Shown: positions 27,813 to 38,095 of the stretch, in pieces
Numbering within the stretch: position 1 is the first letter of the stretch
Layout: each line of letters opens with the position of its first letter
Assembly (NCBI GenBank): GCA_021296345.1
Contig: JAGWAN010000003.1
Location: forward strand, 1 to 64,000
DNA: 64,000 nucleotides
Source of the DNA: Acidimicrobiia bacterium
GTDB taxonomy: Bacteria; Actinomycetota; Acidimicrobiia; Spongiisociales; Spongiisociaceae
Direction: 5' to 3'
Program-made: the position numbers and the translations under genes
The notes under the pieces: model-generated
Databases searched by the model: none
Seen by the model: the letters and a program-made list of their open reading frames with translations, nothing else
Told to the model about the DNA's origin: nothing

Positions 27813-28685
27813 CTAGAAGCCGAAGAGCGACAGGGCGGTGCCGCCCCGGATATCAGCCCGGTCTTCCGGCGGGATGCCGGGCAGGTAATGATCTACCAGC
27901 GACAACACCTCGGAGTAGCCGGGGTTGTCCTTGATCCAGGGCCAGTCGGATGCGTTGAGCATCCGACTGGCGCCGAAGGCCGCATAGACCCGGTCCACCA
28001 CCTCCTGGACGTCGGGGTACGGAAAGGGGGCCTGGGTGAAGGCATACTGGCCCGACAGGTGCACGTAGAGGTGATCCGGATGCTTGGTGGCCATCTGCTC
28101 GATCAGCTCCAAGGAATCCGGTGGAAGCGGGATGTCGAAGCGGGGACGGCGGTCCTCGTCGATGGCTATCTCCATCCAGATGTCAGGACAGAAGCCCAAG
28201 TGGTTGAGGACCACCTTGAGACCGGGTAGCGACTCCATCACCCCGTCGAGAAGGCCCACCTGGACGGGGTCGCCGTAGAACCACACCTTCATGTCCAGGT
28301 CGCGCATCGCCTCCAAGGCCGGGAACACCGCCAACGAGTCGGGCGCCTGGCCTTCCTCACCACCGAAGCCGTAGAAGCGAAGCCCCTGGATACCGACCTG
28401 CTCCGCTCGCCGGGCTACCTGGCCGGCGCCGTCCTCAGCATCGGTGTCGTAGACGCCCACCCCGGCGAACTTGCCCGGATACTCGACCAGAATCTCCGCG
28501 AGGTAGTGATCGTGGACGGACAGCGGAACGATCACAGCATGGTCCACTCCGGCACCGTCCATGGCCGCCAGGAACTCCTCCGCCGCCTCCTCCCGCTCAA
28601 CCGGGGTCATCGCCTCGAAGACGTCGCGCGGGTACTGCTCGCTAGCCGGCTTAAAAAGATGCAGATGGGCGTCTACTACCGCCAT
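27813..28685 (-). CDS. Amidohydrolase 2-family metal-dependent hydrolase
   Basis: TIM-barrel enzyme of the amidohydrolase-2 (ACMSD-like) group, 290 residues. The first metal motif VDAHLHLF lies at residues 4-11, and KVVLNHLGFCPD and DHLYVHLSGQYA carry further likely ligand or barrel-strand residues; ASDWPWIKDN (near 253) holds the late Asp. Members hydrolyse or decarboxylate small lactones and acids. It follows the alpha/beta hydrolase gene by 24 bases at the end of the peptide-type transporter operon, which suggests that it processes the imported compound. Confidence 0.85.
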   Translation of the reverse strand: MAVVDAHLHLFKPASEQYPRDVFEAMTPVEREEAAEEFLAAMDGAGVDHAVIVPLSVHDHYLAEILVEYPGKFAGVGVYDTDAEDGAGQVARRAEQVGIQGLRFYGFGGEEGQAPDSLAVFPALEAMRDLDMKVWFYGDPVQVGLLDGVMESLPGLKVVLNHLGFCPDIWMEIAIDEDRRPRFDIPLPPDSLELIEQMATKHPDHLYVHLSGQYAFTQAPFPYPDVQEVVDRVYAAFGASRMLNASDWPWIKDNPGYSEVLSLVDHYLPGIPPEDRADIRGGTALSLFGF

Positions 28686-28709: not shown

Positions 28710-29417
28710 CTATTCGTCTCGGGCGTCCGGGCCGGACTCTGCTGCCAGGCGCCTTTCCCGGGCCTCTGTGATCTGGTCGGTGTGGTCGGCGATCCAGGCG
28801 AGATGGTGGCCGGTCAGGTAGCGGCGTAGGAAGGTCACCATGTGCTCGGAGAGCTGTGGCTGATCCTCCAGTAATGGCGGCCCGGTGGCGTCGCTGGCGC
28901 CGCTCACCTGGAGCTTGGGACCCCTCATCCTCGGGTAGATGAAGTCGACCTGGCGCTCGACTTCCTCGTTGAGGGCGCCCTTGATCACCAGGCGCATGGC
29001 GGAGCGGGTGGTGCGCCAGTCGATCTCTCGGGGCGCATCCGGCAGCGGGCTGATCATCACCTGGACGGGCGCGCCCTGATCCACGTTGACGAACAGCATG
29101 GCTTCGGTGACCCGACCGTAGGCGACTAGCGCCACGGGGCCGAACGAAGCGGTCGTCTCCCCCAGCAGCGCCGGGAGGTCCTGCCCCAGCATGCCGGGAT
29201 CGGCATCGCCATCCGACAGGCCGTGGCCTCTCAACTCCACACTGATCACCCGGAACCCGTGAGAAGCCACCCCTGCTGTAACCGGACCCCACGCATCCAG
29301 GTCGCCGCCGTGGTCGTGCAGGAACACGACCGCCGGTCCGTCCACCGGCCACTCGTGGCCCCGGAGAACCAGCCCGTCAGGAAGGCGGATGGCGACGGGG
29401 ACCGGCGCCGCCGGCAT
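28710..29417 (-). CDS. Alpha/beta-fold hydrolase
   Basis: Predicted serine-hydrolase-fold protein of 235 residues. The opening PDGLVLRGHEW...VVFLHDHGGDLDAWGPV (short oxyanion-hole strand) and SVELRGHGLSDGDAD are typical. The expected nucleophile elbow is not clear: the corresponding region reads GPVALVAYGRVTEAM, with Tyr where GxSxG would be expected, so this may be a non-catalytic or divergent member. A late His lies in RYLTGHHLAW. The ATG at 29417 overlaps the stop of the ATPase gene (ATGA); an upstream in-frame start would run deep into that gene and was not chosen. Confidence 0.72.
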   Translation of the reverse strand: MPAAPVPVAIRLPDGLVLRGHEWPVDGPAVVFLHDHGGDLDAWGPVTAGVASHGFRVISVELRGHGLSDGDADPGMLGQDLPALLGETTASFGPVALVAYGRVTEAMLFVNVDQGAPVQVMISPLPDAPREIDWRTTRSAMRLVIKGALNEEVERQVDFIYPRMRGPKLQVSGASDATGPPLLEDQPQLSEHMVTFLRRYLTGHHLAWIADHTDQITEARERRLAAESGPDARDE

Positions 29418-30448
29418 CAAACGGCGAACGGTTGCGGGTTGAAGCACCGGAACACCCGACCGTCCTGGTCCGCGCGCAGCTCCGGCTCTTCGATCCAGCA
29501 GCGATCCAGAGCATGGGGACAGCGCGGGGCGAAGGCGCACCCGGGCGGCATCATCTGGAGGGACGGCACCAGGCCCGGGATCGGATCCAGGCGCTGGCGC
29601 GTGGTGCTCACCTTGGGCAATGCCCGGAGTAGGCCCTGGGTGTAGGGATGGCGCGGGTCCTCGAACAACTCGTCCGCCGGGGCTTGCTCCACGATCTCGC
29701 CGGCGTACATGACCGCCACCCGGTCGGCCACCGCGGCCACCACGGCCAGGTCGTGCGTGATCAGGAGCATGGCCATGTGGCGTTCCCGCTGCTCCGTGAC
29801 GAGCTGGTCGAGGATCTGGGCCTGAACGGTCACATCGAGCGCGGTGGTCGGCTCGTCGGCGATCAGGATGTCGGGGTCCAGCACGAGGGCCATCGCAATC
29901 ATCACCCGCTGCCGCATACCTCCCGAGAGTTGGTGCGGGTACGAATCGAGCCGGGAGATCGGATCGGGCAGGCCCACCTCGGCAAGGGCGTCGCCGGCCA
30001 GCCGGCGAGCTTCCCCCTTGCTCACGTCGCGATGGGCCCTGATCACCTCGACGATCACATCTCCCACCGTGAACACCGGGTCCAGGGAGGTGAGCGGATC
30101 CTGGAAGATCATCGAGATGGAATCTGCCCGGATGCTGCGCATCCGCCTGCCGCTCACGCTCAGCAGATCCTCGCCGCGAAACCGGATCTTCCCTTCCCGG
30201 ACCCGCACCGGCGGGGTGGGTAGCAGGCGCATGATGGAAAGGGCGGTGATGCTCTTACCGCAGCCGCTCTCGCCCACCAGGCAGAGCACCTCGTTGGGGT
30301 AGATGTCGAGCGACAGGCCTCGCACCACATCGAACGACTCCCCCCGGGAGCGGACCATGGTGCGAAGCCCTTCGATCGAGAGCAACGGGCCGGTTACCGG
30401 CTGGTCGCCACCGGATGGCCCGCCGCCGTGATCGGTCACGGTTGTCAT
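29417..30448 (-). CDS. Peptide-type ABC transporter ATP-binding protein (DppD/OppD-like)
   Basis: ATPase of the peptide/nickel importer family. Walker A GESGCGKSITALS is near residue 55, the signature LSGGMRQRVMIAMAL near 165 and Walker B ILIADEPTTALDV near 188. The C-terminal cysteine-rich segment (MMPPGCAFAPRCPHALDRC) is the family's zinc/iron-sulfur-like tail. The partner ATPase DppF/OppF is not encoded in this operon, so either this subunit works as a homodimer or the second ATPase lies elsewhere. It starts one base after the stop of the second B-type permease. Confidence 0.93.
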   Translation of the reverse strand: MTTVTDHGGGPSGGDQPVTGPLLSIEGLRTMVRSRGESFDVVRGLSLDIYPNEVLCLVGESGCGKSITALSIMRLLPTPPVRVREGKIRFRGEDLLSVSGRRMRSIRADSISMIFQDPLTSLDPVFTVGDVIVEVIRAHRDVSKGEARRLAGDALAEVGLPDPISRLDSYPHQLSGGMRQRVMIAMALVLDPDILIADEPTTALDVTVQAQILDQLVTEQRERHMAMLLITHDLAVVAAVADRVAVMYAGEIVEQAPADELFEDPRHPYTQGLLRALPKVSTTRQRLDPIPGLVPSLQMMPPGCAFAPRCPHALDRCWIEEPELRADQDGRVFRCFNPQPFAV

Positions 30449-30449
30449 C

Positions 30450-31367
30450 TCAGCTTCTCCGCAGGCGGGGGTTGACGACCGTGTACCCGACGTCGGCCAG
30501 CCAGTTGGATAGCAGGACGATGGTGATCAGCACCAGCGAGAAGAACTGCGCCACCGGATAATCGCGTCTCAGCACCGCGTTGACCAGCACCTGCCCCAGG
30601 CCGGGCCAACCGAATATCGTCTCGACGACCAGGGCATACCCCACTATCTGCCCGATCCTCAGACCCGCCAGCGACACGATCGGTACCAGCGCGTTGCGGA
30701 AGACGTGGCGACCGATGACCTTCGACTCCGAGAGGCCGCCCGACCGGAGGGTCCGGACGAAGTCCTGGTTGAGGTTCTCCAGCATGGCCGAACGGGTCAT
30801 CCGGACGGTCAGCGCCATACCTTCCATCGCCAGCACCACCGCCGGCAGCACCAACTGTTTGGGACCGCAGCATCCGGCGGAGGGGAGCCACCCCAGCACG
30901 GACGCGAACAACCACACCGCCAGCAGGGCCAGCCAGAAGTTGGGAACGGCCATGCCGGCCACCGAGAAGGTCATGATCCCGCCGTCCCACCACGAGTTCC
31001 TGCGCAGTGAGGCGAGCATGCCCAGGGGGATGCCCACTCCGAACACGAGCACGAAGGCCGCTACCCCGAGGATAAGGCTGTTGCGTCCGTGCTCGGTGAG
31101 CAGCTTGCTGATGTCTGCGTTGTTGGTAAGTGAGTTGCCGAGGTCGCCGCTGAAGAGCCGACCCATATAGTCGAAGTACTGCTCGTGGAACGGGTCGTTC
31201 AACCCGAGTTGCTCGCGCACCGCCTCGCGTTCCTCGGCCGAGGCCGACGCCGGAACTCGAGCCGCCACCGCGTCGCCGCCTGACAGGCGGATGGCGTAGA
31301 ACACCGCCACCGAGGACAACGCCAGCACGATGACCGTATAGATGGTGCGAGCCAGGACACGCTTCAC
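30450..31367 (-). CDS. Peptide-type ABC permease, B subunit (second copy)
   Basis: Inner-membrane permease of the DppB/OppB family, about six helices, 305 residues. The family loop motif is in FVRTLRSGGLSESKVIGRH and the end is GYTVVNPRLRRS. The GTG at 31367 overlaps the stop of the C-type permease (GTGA); the long open frame extending upstream is the out-of-frame shadow of that gene. It is about 70% identical by eye to the B permease at 32362-33288, and the 3' half is also close at nucleotide level, indicating a recent duplication around the C gene. Confidence 0.92.
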   Translation of the reverse strand: MKRVLARTIYTVIVLALSSVAVFYAIRLSGGDAVAARVPASASAEEREAVREQLGLNDPFHEQYFDYMGRLFSGDLGNSLTNNADISKLLTEHGRNSLILGVAAFVLVFGVGIPLGMLASLRRNSWWDGGIMTFSVAGMAVPNFWLALLAVWLFASVLGWLPSAGCCGPKQLVLPAVVLAMEGMALTVRMTRSAMLENLNQDFVRTLRSGGLSESKVIGRHVFRNALVPIVSLAGLRIGQIVGYALVVETIFGWPGLGQVLVNAVLRRDYPVAQFFSLVLITIVLLSNWLADVGYTVVNPRLRRS

Positions 31368-32329
31368 TCCTTGTCCACCCCCTTGGCCTCGTGCCTGAGC
31401 CGGGGGTCGAACACATCTCGCAGGCCGTCGCCGATCAACGACACGGCCAGCACCAGCAGCACGATGGTGACACCGGGAATGGTGGCGCCCCAATGACCGA
31501 CCTGCCCCAACTCGGGCACGTTGTGTTGGAGGTAGTTGCGCCCATCGGAAACCATGCCCCCGAGACTGGGGGTGGGAGGTTGGGCCCCCAGCCCGATGAA
31601 GGAAAGGGCCGCCTCGGCGATGATCGCCACCGCCACGTAGTAGGAGGCCAGCACCAGAGCCGGGGCCAGGATGTTGGGGAATAGGTGGCGCCACATGATG
31701 CGCGAGGTCGAAAGCCCGCCCGCTCGGGCCGCTTCGACGAACTCTCGCTCGCTTAGTGACAGCACCTCGCCTCGGACCACCCGGGCAATGGCGGCTGTGT
31801 TGACCAGCCCAACCGCCAGAATCACCGGGAAAAGGCCTTCCCCCAGACCTCCGGCGAAGAGCACCGCCACCAGGATCAGGGGGAATCCCCACACGAAGTC
31901 GACCGTGCCCCTGATCATTCGATCTCGCCAGCCGCCGAGGAACCCGCCGAACATACCCAGCAGCAGGCCCAACATCAGGGAGAGCACAGTCACGCCCGCC
32001 GCCACCATCAGGCTGACCCGTATCCCGATGAACACCCGCACCGCCAAGTCGCGGCCCAAGTGGTCGGTGCCGAGCAGATGGCCCTCGCTGCCCGGGGGTA
32101 GCAGCGTGGCGGAAAAGCTCTGGAAGTTCGGGTCGGCGCCCGAAATAATCGGACCGAACAGGCCGGTGCCTAGCACGACCAGCCCGAGCACCGACCCCAC
32201 GAGTAGGAGCTTGTTGCGGCGCATCCGACCCAGAGCGGCCCTTGCCGGCCCAACCCGGCGGCTCTCCTCGAACTCGGCTAGCTGGACATTCCAAGCTTCA
32301 AGATGGGTTCGCGTGCTGTCAGCCATCAC
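31364..32329 (-). CDS. Peptide-type ABC permease, C subunit (DppC/OppC-like)
   Basis: Second class of permease in the importer, 321 residues. The N-terminal cytoplasmic stretch (RMRRNKLLLVGSVLGL) and LLGTDHLGRDLAVRVFIG are characteristic of DppC proteins. The EAA-like loop is EFVEAARAGGLSTSRIMWRHLFPN. About six helices are predicted. It lies between two B-type paralogues, 32 bases after the first and overlapping the second by 4 bases. One C subunit with two alternative B partners, or a change of partner during evolution, are both possible. Confidence 0.93.
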   Translation of the reverse strand: MMADSTRTHLEAWNVQLAEFEESRRVGPARAALGRMRRNKLLLVGSVLGLVVLGTGLFGPIISGADPNFQSFSATLLPPGSEGHLLGTDHLGRDLAVRVFIGIRVSLMVAAGVTVLSLMLGLLLGMFGGFLGGWRDRMIRGTVDFVWGFPLILVAVLFAGGLGEGLFPVILAVGLVNTAAIARVVRGEVLSLSEREFVEAARAGGLSTSRIMWRHLFPNILAPALVLASYYVAVAIIAEAALSFIGLGAQPPTPSLGGMVSDGRNYLQHNVPELGQVGHWGATIPGVTIVLLVLAVSLIGDGLRDVFDPRLRHEAKGVDKE

Positions 32330-32361
32330 CCAATCCGCAGAGGTTCGTAAGCATCATACGT

Positions 32362-33288
32362 TCACGATCTGGCAGAGCGCAGGCGCGGATTGGCCAGTTG
32401 GTAGCCCAGATCCGACGCCCAGTTGCCCAGGATCACCAGGATCACCAGCACCAGCGAGAAGAACTGCGCCACCGGGTAGTCCCTCCTCAGCACCGCGTTG
32501 ACCAGCACCTGCCCCAGACCGGGCCAGCCGAATATGGTCTCGACGACCAGGGCATACCCAACGATCTGCCCGATCCGTAGGCCGGCCAGCGATACCAGGG
32601 GAACCATGGCGTTTCGCAGCACGTGGCGCCCGATCACCCGCATCTCGGACAGCCCGCCCGACCGGAGCGTCCGCACGAAATCGCGGTCCAGGTTCTCGAG
32701 CATGGCCGAACGGGTCATCCGAACGGTGAGAGCCAGGCCCTCTGCGGCCAGCACGAACGCCGGCATCACCAACTGTTGGGGACTGCAGCAGCCGGCGGAG
32801 GGGAGCCAGTGGAGGGTGGAGGCGAACAGCCAGACGGCCAGCAGCGCCAACCAGAAGTTGGGGATCGCCATACCGCCCACCGAGAACGTCATGATCGACG
32901 CGTCCACCACGCCGTTGCGGCGCAGCGAGGCCAGGATCCCCAACGGGATGCCTAGGCCGAAGATGATCAGCAGGGCGGCGGCCCCGAGCATCAGGCTGTG
33001 CCGGCCGTGGATGATCAGCATGTCCGATATGGGCGAGCTGTTGGTCAAGGAGTTGCCCAGATCGCCTCGAAGCAGCCGCCCCATGTAGTCGAAGTACTGC
33101 TCGTGGATGGGAAGGTTCAGTCCCCAGAGCTCCCGTAGTTGTTCGCGCGCCTCCAGCGAGGCCGAGCCCGGCTGGATGACGGCGGCCACCGCGTCGCCTC
33201 CCGAGAGCCGGATGGCGTAGAAGACCGCCACCGAGGAGACCGCCACGATGGCCAGCATGTAGGCGGAACGGGCTACCAGCCGCCTCAA
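32362..33288 (-). CDS. Peptide-type ABC permease, B subunit (first copy)
   Basis: DppB/OppB-family inner-membrane permease of 308 residues with SSVAVFYAIRLSGGDAVAA at the first helix, FDYMGRLLRGDLGNSLTNS and the coupling loop FVRTLRSGGLSEMRVIGRH. It precedes the C permease and follows the binding-protein gene. Its sequence is nearly superimposable on the other B copy, including a Cys pair (PSAGCC) in an extracytoplasmic loop. The two copies differ most at the N-terminal helix and in the loop after GDAVAA, where substrate or partner specificity might have diverged. Confidence 0.93.
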   Translation of the reverse strand: MRRLVARSAYMLAIVAVSSVAVFYAIRLSGGDAVAAVIQPGSASLEAREQLRELWGLNLPIHEQYFDYMGRLLRGDLGNSLTNSSPISDMLIIHGRHSLMLGAAALLIIFGLGIPLGILASLRRNGVVDASIMTFSVGGMAIPNFWLALLAVWLFASTLHWLPSAGCCSPQQLVMPAFVLAAEGLALTVRMTRSAMLENLDRDFVRTLRSGGLSEMRVIGRHVLRNAMVPLVSLAGLRIGQIVGYALVVETIFGWPGLGQVLVNAVLRRDYPVAQFFSLVLVILVILGNWASDLGYQLANPRLRSARS

Positions 33289-33306: not shown

Positions 33307-33334
33307 AAAAGGGCCGCGCCGGAGCGCGACCCTT
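33307..33334 (-). terminator. Intrinsic-terminator-like hairpin between binding protein and permease
   Basis: On the minus strand an 11-bp stem with one mismatch (AAGGGTCGCGC / GCGCGGCCCTT), a TCCG loop and a following TTTT run lie in the 82-base gap after the binding-protein gene. Partial termination or 3' protection here would make binding protein more abundant than the membrane components. Confidence 0.65.
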
Positions 33335-33370: not shown

Positions 33371-35212
33371 TTAGGCCTCGATCCAGGTGTCGTTGTAGTA
33401 CGGGTAGAGGTTCCACACGAAGGGCTGCCATCCGTGCACCTTGTTGTTGTGTACGAAGGTGGCGTTCTGGTTCATGAGCGGGATGTACGGAAGCTCCTCG
33501 GCCCAGGCCAGCTGGAACTGGGAAGCCGCCGCCTGTGCCTGCGCATCGGTGGCAGATGTCTGCCAGCTGGCGATGGCATCGTCGACCCGCGGCTCCACGG
33601 CGTGCGAGAAGTTCGGCACCGGGATGAACTGGGATCCACCGAAGAGGATCAGCACGTCCAGCGGGATCGGCCACAGCCAGAAGAAAAGCGACATCTCGAC
33701 CGAATCCCGACCCGGGCCGCTCTGCTGCTCGAAGGCGAGCGCTCGGTCGACCACGTCGAGGTTGGCCCTGACGCCGACATTGGCGAACTGGGCCTGTACC
33801 GCTTCGGCCACCGACTTCTGCACCGTCTCGTCCTCGACGAGATAGCGAAACTCGAACCTTACCCCGTCGCGCTCCCGGACACCGCCGCTGCCCATCGTCC
33901 ATCCGGCCCGGTCCAGCTTCTGGTTGGCCAGATCGAGATCGAACTGGTTGTACTGCTCGACCGCCGACTCGTAGTTCCGGTCGGTGGTGGGGAACGGACC
34001 GTAGGTCGCGGCGCCGTTGCCGAACAGGATGGCCTGGACCATGCCCTCCCGATCCAACGCGTGGGACAGGCCCTGGCGGGTCAACCGGTCACCGAAGTAC
34101 TCGGGATAGTCACGGTTCATCGCCAGGTGGTATCCCGACCACTCGGGATGCCGGATCACCGTCAGGTCGGAGTTGGACTCGAGGCGCCCGATGTCCTGGT
34201 GGGCAGGGTTGATCAGGGTATCGATGTCGCCGTTCTCAAGCTGGGTGGCCCGCTGGCCTGCCTCGGTGATGACCGTCCACCGGATAGCGTCCAGATGGGC
34301 CGGGCCCTTGTTCTCGAAGAACGGGGTCTGGGAACCGGGGTAGTCGGCCCAGCGCCGGACCAGCACGTGGCTCCCCGGTACCCACTCCTCATGGGTGAAG
34401 GGACCGGTGCCGTCAGCCAGCTCGGTGCCGTAGGTCGATGCGGCGTTGAGCTCGCCATCGGCCGTGATCGAGTGCTCCTTCCAGGTGTTGATGTTGACGA
34501 TCCGCCAGTACCCGGTCTTGTGCGGGCCGAGTGCCCCCACCCAGGGGTTCTTCATCTTCATGACGACATCGTTGCCGTCCGCCTCGTAGGTGTCGACCGG
34601 CGCCGCCAGGCCGGCGATGAAGCTGTAGGCCTGGATAGACCGGTAGAACTCGGCGACCATCTCGGCGTCGATGGTTCCGCCGGAGTGCGACAGCTTGCCC
34701 TCCGGAATGGTGAACCGGTACTCGAGACCGTCGTCTGACCCCGAGTATCCCGACGCGAACTGGGGCACGGTGGCGCCGCTCGGATCGTTTGACAGGATCG
34801 CCTCGTAGATGGCGAAGAACGCCGGGTCGTACCAGTTGGTGGTCGCCGGATCGTGCTTGGAAACGTCCCGGTTGTAACCCTCACGCAGTGTGCCGCCCGT
34901 GACCGGGCCCATCATCGCCGCTTCGGTTGTCGCGGTCGTCTCCGCCGGCGCGGCCGCCTGGGTGGTGGTGGCGCCGTCATCCGAGGGGGCTGCGGTGGTG
35001 GCGGTAGTGGCGGCGGTGGTAGCAACGGCTTCGGGCTCGTCGTCCCCGCCACAGGCTGCAAGTATCGACGCCGCGGCCGCTACTCCCACGCCGGCAACAC
35101 CCAGACGCTTCATGAACTGGCGCCGCCCGATCTTCTTGGCCATGTACTGCTCGGTGAGTTCGGTCACCTCCGGACCCAGGTCCGGATCCATCCAAGAGTT
35201 GCCCATAACCAA
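33371..35212 (-). CDS. Peptide/nickel-type ABC substrate-binding lipoprotein, Tat-exported
   Basis: Family 5 extracellular solute-binding protein, 613 residues. The signal has an unusually long first segment, then a twin-arginine motif (GRRQFMKRLG, near residue 28), a weakly hydrophobic stretch and a lipobox (ILAAC, Cys about 54). A Thr/Ala-rich linker of about 50 residues separates the anchor from the binding domain, which shows family landmarks such as YRFTIPEGKLSHSG, GTGPFTHEEW and ARQGLSHALDREG-like segments. First gene of the leftward importer operon. Tat export implies folding or cofactor binding before export; the ligand is not known. Confidence 0.92.
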   Translation of the reverse strand: MVMGNSWMDPDLGPEVTELTEQYMAKKIGRRQFMKRLGVAGVGVAAAASILAACGGDDEPEAVATTAATTATTAAPSDDGATTTQAAAPAETTATTEAAMMGPVTGGTLREGYNRDVSKHDPATTNWYDPAFFAIYEAILSNDPSGATVPQFASGYSGSDDGLEYRFTIPEGKLSHSGGTIDAEMVAEFYRSIQAYSFIAGLAAPVDTYEADGNDVVMKMKNPWVGALGPHKTGYWRIVNINTWKEHSITADGELNAASTYGTELADGTGPFTHEEWVPGSHVLVRRWADYPGSQTPFFENKGPAHLDAIRWTVITEAGQRATQLENGDIDTLINPAHQDIGRLESNSDLTVIRHPEWSGYHLAMNRDYPEYFGDRLTRQGLSHALDREGMVQAILFGNGAATYGPFPTTDRNYESAVEQYNQFDLDLANQKLDRAGWTMGSGGVRERDGVRFEFRYLVEDETVQKSVAEAVQAQFANVGVRANLDVVDRALAFEQQSGPGRDSVEMSLFFWLWPIPLDVLILFGGSQFIPVPNFSHAVEPRVDDAIASWQTSATDAQAQAAASQFQLAWAEELPYIPLMNQNATFVHNNKVHGWQPFVWNLYPYYNDTWIEA

Positions 35213-37288: not shown

Positions 37289-38095
37289 CTACGAAACCGG
37301 TACCCGATCAGAGGGGTAGGCGGCCAGGAAGTTCTCTACGCCGCCGGGCGACCAGACCGGCCCGAAGGGAAGCTCCATCTCTACACGCGGGGAGCCTTCG
37401 CAAGGCCTTCCGCGGCTAACCATCAGCGTGGTCGTCCCGGCTTGGTGGCGGAGTAAGTAGCTGTAGACGGTGCTGTAGCCCAGGTGGTTGCAAACACCCG
37501 TGTCGCCCTGGTCGTGGCTCCGGAGCAGCTCGAGGATGTCTTCCAGCGAGGCGGCCCGGTCGAGGCGGGCCTGAGCGGAGGCGATCCGGTCGAGCGTGGT
37601 CAACCGGTCATCGTTGTCGGGATGAACTCCGAGCTCGGTGTGATGGTTGGATCGGGCGGTGGGCCTGTCCGGCCGGAGCACGGCCGTTCGCCGGCTCCGC
37701 ACCTCGATAGCTGCCTGCCCGTGACGATCGATCAGCACCAGGTTGGCCCACAGGTAGGGGCGGGACGCCACCGCTCGCTCCACCGCGGCCACGCCCGATG
37801 CCACATCCATGCCCTCGCGCAAGGCGATCTCGACCAGATCGTCGTAGTTGGCGTGGCCGTAGAGGGTGCGGACGTTGGAATCGCACACGAGTAGGCCGGA
37901 GGAGTTGGCGCCTATGGAGAATCCCGAGAACCGGTCCAGGTCGGGATCGGTTCCCGCCCAGGTAGTGATGCCCTCCACGCCGAACACGTCCGGTTCGAGG
38001 ACCAGGCGGTCGTCGAAACTCTCCCTGCCGAAGTCCTTGTTCTTGAACAGCAGGTAGTCGTCAGGTCCGAGCCTGAAGAACCCGGTGGTGCACAC
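37289..38095 (-). CDS. C45-type Ntn hydrolase / acyltransferase-like protein
   Basis: N-terminal-nucleophile hydrolase fold. Cys2 directly after the initiator Met (MCTTGFF) would be the nucleophile without long propeptide; FKNKDFGRESFDDRLV and GVEGITTWAGTDPDLDRFSG, GFSIGANSSGLLVCDSNV continue the family pattern (peptidase C45/linear amide hydrolase). HHTELGVHPDNDDRL is a further conserved-looking segment. Members cleave amide bonds in penicillins, ceramide-like molecules or peptides. The M20 hydrolase gene diverges from it across an 82-base gap. Confidence 0.82.
   Translation of the reverse strand: MCTTGFFRLGPDDYLLFKNKDFGRESFDDRLVLEPDVFGVEGITTWAGTDPDLDRFSGFSIGANSSGLLVCDSNVRTLYGHANYDDLVEIALREGMDVASGVAAVERAVASRPYLWANLVLIDRHGQAAIEVRSRRTAVLRPDRPTARSNHHTELGVHPDNDDRLTTLDRIASAQARLDRAASLEDILELLRSHDQGDTGVCNHLGYSTVYSYLLRHQAGTTTLMVSRGRPCEGSPRVEMELPFGPVWSPGGVENFLAAYPSDRVPVS

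Follow-up and report, generated by a model that had tools for sequence, protein, structure and literature searches.

The window analysed here, a stretch of DNA of 64,000 nucleotides, encodes a member of a known importer family, Opp/Dpp, with two B permease genes in one operon. The permease duplication is real, conserved and selected, and the divergence between its two copies is focused on the scoop. We put at roughly 0.6 the probability that this is an Opp/Dpp-like importer with an additional, diverged B subunit that has become fixed, and that the B1-C and B2-C pairs share the D ATPase and an unlinked F ATPase and differ in the docking of the binding protein (SBP). That both pairs form is something we infer from the gene sequences.

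Operon structure and gene neighborhood

The genes lie on the minus strand in the order SBP, B1, C, B2, D. The SBP (33371..35212) belongs to the SBP_bac_5 family (PF00496, 1e-49), and its N terminus (RRQFMKRLG...LAAC) resembles a lipoprotein signal that we take to be of the twin-arginine type. Then follow B1, the putatively added B permease (32362..33288; PF00528, 5.8e-40), a single-copy C permease (31364..32329), B2, the putatively ancestral B permease (30450..31367; BPD_transp_1_N in addition to PF00528), and a D-type ATPase with an oligo_HPY C-terminal region (29417..30448; PF00005 and PF08352). PF00528 was found in all three permeases and OppC_N in the middle one only; NCBIfam ranked Opp2B first for both outer permeases and Opp4C/Opp2C first for the middle one. 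The top NCBIfam model for the D ATPase is the dipeptide ATP-binding protein PRK11022, with a score under its cut-off. B1 starts at TTG 33288, preceded by AGGAG, and B2 at GTG 31367, with a 4-base overlap with the C stop. Pfam, NCBIfam and the start sites agree with the B-C-B arrangement and the coordinates (30450 to 33288) proposed in a preliminary description of this DNA.

Several traits of Opp/Dpp importers are present: an SBP_bac_5 binding protein, B and C permeases that differ in subtype, an alpha1-loop-alpha2 scoop in B, and D and F ATPases with oligo_HPY, D in the operon and F unlinked. The Opp/Dpp norm of one B and one C, with B before C, is followed neither by the B1-C-B2 operon nor by the C-B operons of its relatives. 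Exactly two permeases occur in 12 of the 13 peptide-type loci of the window's genome (2.83 Mb, 82 contigs, 95% complete) that have an oligo_HPY ATPase beside the permeases. Judged by reading, the B1-C-B2 locus is the only one with three, and all 12 others have B followed by C. Because these 12 loci have B before C, the C-before-B family was an exception even before the gain of B1. In another peptide-type operon of the genome, the B permease gene (G000:C58:20672-21560) is in two frames, possibly through a frameshift or an assembly error.

A candidate for the F subunit is the lone F-type ATPase of the window's genome (G000:C68:8646-9656, or L093 7602-8660; PF08352), which has acetamidase-like and aminotransferase genes as neighbors. 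It is 89% identical to the F of L007, whose block lies some 5 kb behind the operon and on the opposite strand from it. Operon and F orthologue share a contig, about 16 kb or less apart, in five single-B genomes (G021, G061, G111, G380 and G105) and are on different contigs in G000, G034, G030 and G027. The candidate is likely the partner of the operon's D, with which it would cooperate.

Downstream of D on the minus strand are a weakly alpha/beta-hydrolase-like frame (28710..29540; TIGR02427 at 1.6e-6, under the NCBIfam cut-off, and no Pfam match) and an amidohydrolase of the Amidohydro_2 family (27813..28685; PF04909, 1.2e-29). An amidohydrolase gene is near the transporter in most relatives. 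The neighbors of the operon also include M20 and S15-type peptidases and a gene at 37289-38095, and together these genes are consistent with an amide or peptide substrate. The gene at 37289-38095 has no Pfam match; by eye it resembles amide hydrolases of the C45/AAT type, and most relatives keep it close to the operon. At one locus (L001, 10646-14737), the transporter operon and the amidohydrolase gene are separated by an McrBC-like pair (PF10117 with an AAA_5 ATPase); long gaps occur there in L055 and L056 too.

The 82-base spacer between the SBP gene and B1 contains a G+C-rich stem-loop (33309..33334, minus strand; the spacer folds at -41.6 kcal/mol). Behind the SBP gene, all ten two-B loci with a complete spacer have a strong stem-loop, as do G021, G111 and G078 and the six loci of genus g45. 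The stem is weak or missing at x16, x17 and x19 (L016, L017 and L019) and in G387 and G380, and G061 has a longer folded spacer. In most relatives the stem-loop is kept with a differing sequence. Internal terminators behind SBP genes that reduce permease transcripts are described for Clostridia (PMC9045158). The stem-loop is possibly an internal terminator that keeps the permease transcript under that of the SBP, giving an excess of SBP; B1 would therefore lie on the low-expression side, alongside C and B2.

Distribution and history of the two B genes

Searching 138 genomes of the order with B2 at a threshold of E 1e-80, we found matches in 22, of which 11 have two copies and 11 have one. The two-copy genomes are the window's genome, eight others of its genus and two of a sister genus in the same family. 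At this threshold there was no B2 match in G028 (same genus) or G024 (same family), and the one match in G025 is broken by a contig end. Across a class sample of 395 genomes, 23 had a match at E 1e-95, with two copies in 11. The bacteria with this importer are mostly uncultured, and from bin names, several of the relatives are presumably derived from sponges.

Gene order was compared for 30 loci; a repeat, a truncated locus and a distant one were removed, leaving 27, comprising 11 with B1-C-B2 and 16 complete single-B loci with C-B. Rows left out over the whole analysis were L020 and L021 (short contigs with equal length and match), L023 (a short fragment), L060 from G025 (contig ends within B), L066 (a duplicate of G078) and the distant L024 and L022, which served only as tree outgroups and rows of A2 and A3. 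The B-C-B arrangement is thus present in 11 genomes of two sister genera, with D behind B2, a B1-C gap of 22-35 bases and a 4-base C/B2 overlap in every one. The SBP gene precedes B1 in 10 of the 11 (one gene is partial, at a contig edge) and is missing at a contig edge in the other. At one single-B locus, L018, the SBP is located elsewhere.

The single B directly follows C in 16 of 16 single-B loci, which is the place of B2, and B2, the orthologue of this gene, also has the highest identity to the single B of the relatives. Because single-B relatives carry their B at this place, B2 is predicted to be the ancestral copy and B1 the added one; C-B would be the older order in the operon family and B1 an addition between the SBP gene and C. 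Alternatively, B1 is older and was lost elsewhere. The preliminary description found the placement odd, given that duplication normally yields adjacent copies. The copies do flank C, but no unusual mechanism is needed, because C already precedes B in single-B relatives and the added copy went in front of C. Another route is a doubling of the C-B unit followed by loss of one C.

In a thinned tree with 7 of the 11 rows of each copy, B1 forms one clade (100/100) and B2 another (99/98). The B1 clade has a long stem (0.23-0.31), and the B2 clade is near the single B of G021 and G061. A tree of C, D and SBP places the 11 two-B genomes in one clade (SH-aLRT 94) with G021, which has one B, as sister (SH-aLRT 99). 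A single gain of B1 on the two-B branch would be the simplest account. Uniting B1 and B2 in a single clade gives a tree that is not rejected (p-AU 0.20), and B1 may have been born after G021 branched off and changed fast early on, may be older and have been lost in places, or may have been transferred. In 396 genomes of the phylum, no donor-like B1 appeared at E 1e-90: the sole match was the window's own genome.

Aligned, B1 and B2 have 75.1% protein identity and 74.2% DNA identity (dS 0.81, dN 0.19), against the roughly 70% previously estimated by eye. The reported similarity of their 3' parts is also borne out: DNA identity is 78% in the 3' half versus 70% in the 5' half, with a peak of 87% at aligned codons 236-285. 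At these codons pS is 0.33, where random codon choice would give 0.60 +/- 0.08, and the similarity of the last third reflects partly protein conservation and partly fewer silent differences than random codon choice predicts. Identical DNA runs between the copies reach 53 bases. For the eight closest genomes, silent distances between B1 and B2 at aligned codons 240-270 (0.27 within genomes, 0.30 across) are as small as orthologue distances there. Recent gene conversion in this 3' part is not supported; all B1 stay together in a DNA tree of columns 238-300 (SH-aLRT 96). A clade of all B1 and B2 from the eight genomes was neither found nor rejected for these columns (p-AU 0.17) and was rejected for the 5' half (p-AU 1e-7). 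An old and partial conversion may have taken place there.

Divergence of the scoop

Both B genes are under purifying selection, and judging from substitution patterns neither looks to be decaying. Relative to the window's copies, pairwise dN/dS is 0.059-0.121 for the ten B1 orthologues and 0.047-0.093 for the ten B2 orthologues. In 19 alignment columns, all 11 B1 have one residue and all 11 B2 another. The scoop, defined as the 29 of 305 alignment columns that match DppB residues 32-62, holds nine of these fixed differences (9/29 scoop columns versus 10/276 others, Fisher p 9e-6), and no equally dense cluster arose in 5000 random placements. The excess persists among sites invariant in both groups (9/25 versus 10/183, p 5e-5). 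The scoop motif of B1 covers about residues 33-59, with one extra loop residue in all B1 shown.

Within each copy, 28 of 29 scoop columns are invariant in B1 and 26 of 29 in B2, and silent sites in the scoop are near saturation (pS 0.67 and 0.60). Comparing orthologues of the eight close with the three distant genomes, scoop pN/pS is 0.03 in each copy, and outside the scoop it is 0.18 for B1 versus 0.11 for B2. Between B1 and B2 of the same genome, pN is 0.26 in the scoop versus 0.16 elsewhere. The scoop is the most diverged part between the copies and is almost frozen within each. Among single-B relatives it is one of the most variable parts, with 12 of 29 columns invariant versus 148 of 276 elsewhere. 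Ordinary drift, with later fixation, may account for some of the scoop divergence, which would count against two heterodimers.

AlphaFold models place the same helices in B1 and B2, with a scoop loop one residue longer in B1. The scoop helices are modelled at residues 33-37 and 45-55 in B1 and at 33-37 and 44-53 in B2. The B1 model has a pLDDT of 80, and its nearest solved folds are DppB and OppB, DppB being the best. In E. coli Dpp, DppB binds DppD and DppC binds DppF, and D235, T239, K243, H254 and N258 of DppB are given as contacts with DppD (PMC12136057). The positions of D235, T239, H254 and N258 are occupied by identical residues in all 22 B1 and B2 sequences; the K243 position is glycine in every one, which counts against two heterodimers. 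The coupling helix, the TM5-TM6 region and the mapped gate positions (one V, the other I or V) are the same in both copies.

The DppB scoop is described as filling the cleft of DppA, with E41 and R42 forming salt bridges to DppA; changing this charged pair abolished growth on dipeptide, and deletion of the scoop impaired growth (PMC12136057). The charged pair is conserved in neither B1 nor B2, a further point against two heterodimers, and because of this the scoop function is carried over to the window's permeases by place and not by residues. Also counting against two heterodimers, few changes elsewhere in the transporter are tied to the presence of B1 (one site in C, one in D and four in the SBP).

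A proposed two-B importer and its alternatives

We propose that B1 and B2 would each be able to bind D and would compete for the one C, forming either a B1-C or a B2-C translocator that shares the ATPase D and the unlinked F. The two scoops would enter the SBP cleft differently, and substrate could then be released or held differently, or other SBPs or substrate classes accepted. A more tentative extension is that SBP docking and substrate release are tuned through the cell's choice of B and not of binding protein, with two B competing for one C and one D/F. Alternative heterodimers with different specificity had been suggested in the preliminary description. The presence of two distinct, conserved and selected B genes, and their pattern of divergence, fit alternative heterodimers. 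Different specificity fares less well: the coupling helix and mapped gate are the same, and the difference is located in the scoop, which is expected to contact the SBP.

The shared coupling helix, gate positions, TM5-TM6 region and runs of identical DNA would also suit B1 and B2 that are interchangeable, with B1 providing dosage or assembly balance and a neutral difference in a scoop that is variable among single-B relatives anyway. We consider this unlikely, as neutral divergence does not give a scoop that is frozen per copy, with silent change saturated, yet differs between copies, and B1 and B2 have been kept apart in 11 genomes. It is improbable that B1 acts as a regulator, or is on its way to losing its function, and occupies C or D without transport. 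B1 does evolve faster than B2, as seen in its long stem and in its identity to the window's copy (83-96% versus 92-98%), but its frame is open in 11 of 11 genomes, its dN/dS is at most about 0.12 and it keeps the ATPase contact positions. A duplication introduced by assembly or binning has practically no chance of being correct. The relatives, where titles are known, are metagenome-assembled Acidimicrobiia, and the one-B relatives named in the preliminary description as a warning sign do exist, but such an artifact is refuted by the 26% DNA divergence, the distinct flanks, recurrence in the same order in 11 assemblies and clean orthology per copy.

The operon has one SBP gene, and no close SBP paralogue was found in the window's genome, which counts against two heterodimers. 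That B1 instead serves a binding protein encoded elsewhere we hold to be very improbable. One such protein is an orphan of the SBP_bac_5 family (G000:C58:28077-29924, or L091 2075-3928), which occurs in 9 of the 11 two-B genomes and in none of the 12 single-B genomes searched, and which has no matching permease nearby in three other genomes (L095, L096 and L097). However, G027 and G026 have B1 and no match to the orphan, the co-occurrence amounts to a single phylogenetic event, and another peptide-type transporter is about 6 kb from the orphan in the window's genome. The orphan starts with MPTNGPRSELVLHW or MTTNGP..., without an evident export signal. Named by eye, its neighbors are PLP-decarboxylase-like, luciferase-like and FAD-oxidoreductase-like genes.

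As in E. coli DppABCDF (PDB 8z1v and 8z1y), the importer has an SBP, a scoop-bearing B, C, D and F. E. coli Dpp is described with one B and the order A-B-C-D-F in one operon (PMC12136057); here the ancestral B comes after C, an additional B is found in front of C, and the F gene is unlinked. More than one B-type permease per ATPase pair is also described for Borrelia burgdorferi Opp, in which OppB1C1 and OppB2C2 share OppDF and there are five OppA; its authors suggest that the binding proteins vary in affinity for the two permeases (PMC5736914). Borrelia doubles whole B-C pairs, whereas here B alone is doubled and both copies would share the one C of the operon. Modular widening of a peptide importer is likewise described for Pseudomonas aeruginosa, where DppBCDF works with DppA1-A5 (PMC4206461); there several SBPs use one translocator, and here one SBP gene accompanies two B subunits. 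A search of open-licence papers, which is not proof of absence, found no description of a B-C-B arrangement or of scoop-focused divergence.

The role of the DppB scoop has been assigned only recently (PMC12136057). Two frozen versions of the scoop in one operon, with the gate surface and the surface facing the ATPase largely unchanged, make scoop function and the matching of SBP to permease directly testable. This importer would be an unusual case of subunit choice within a heterodimeric importer.
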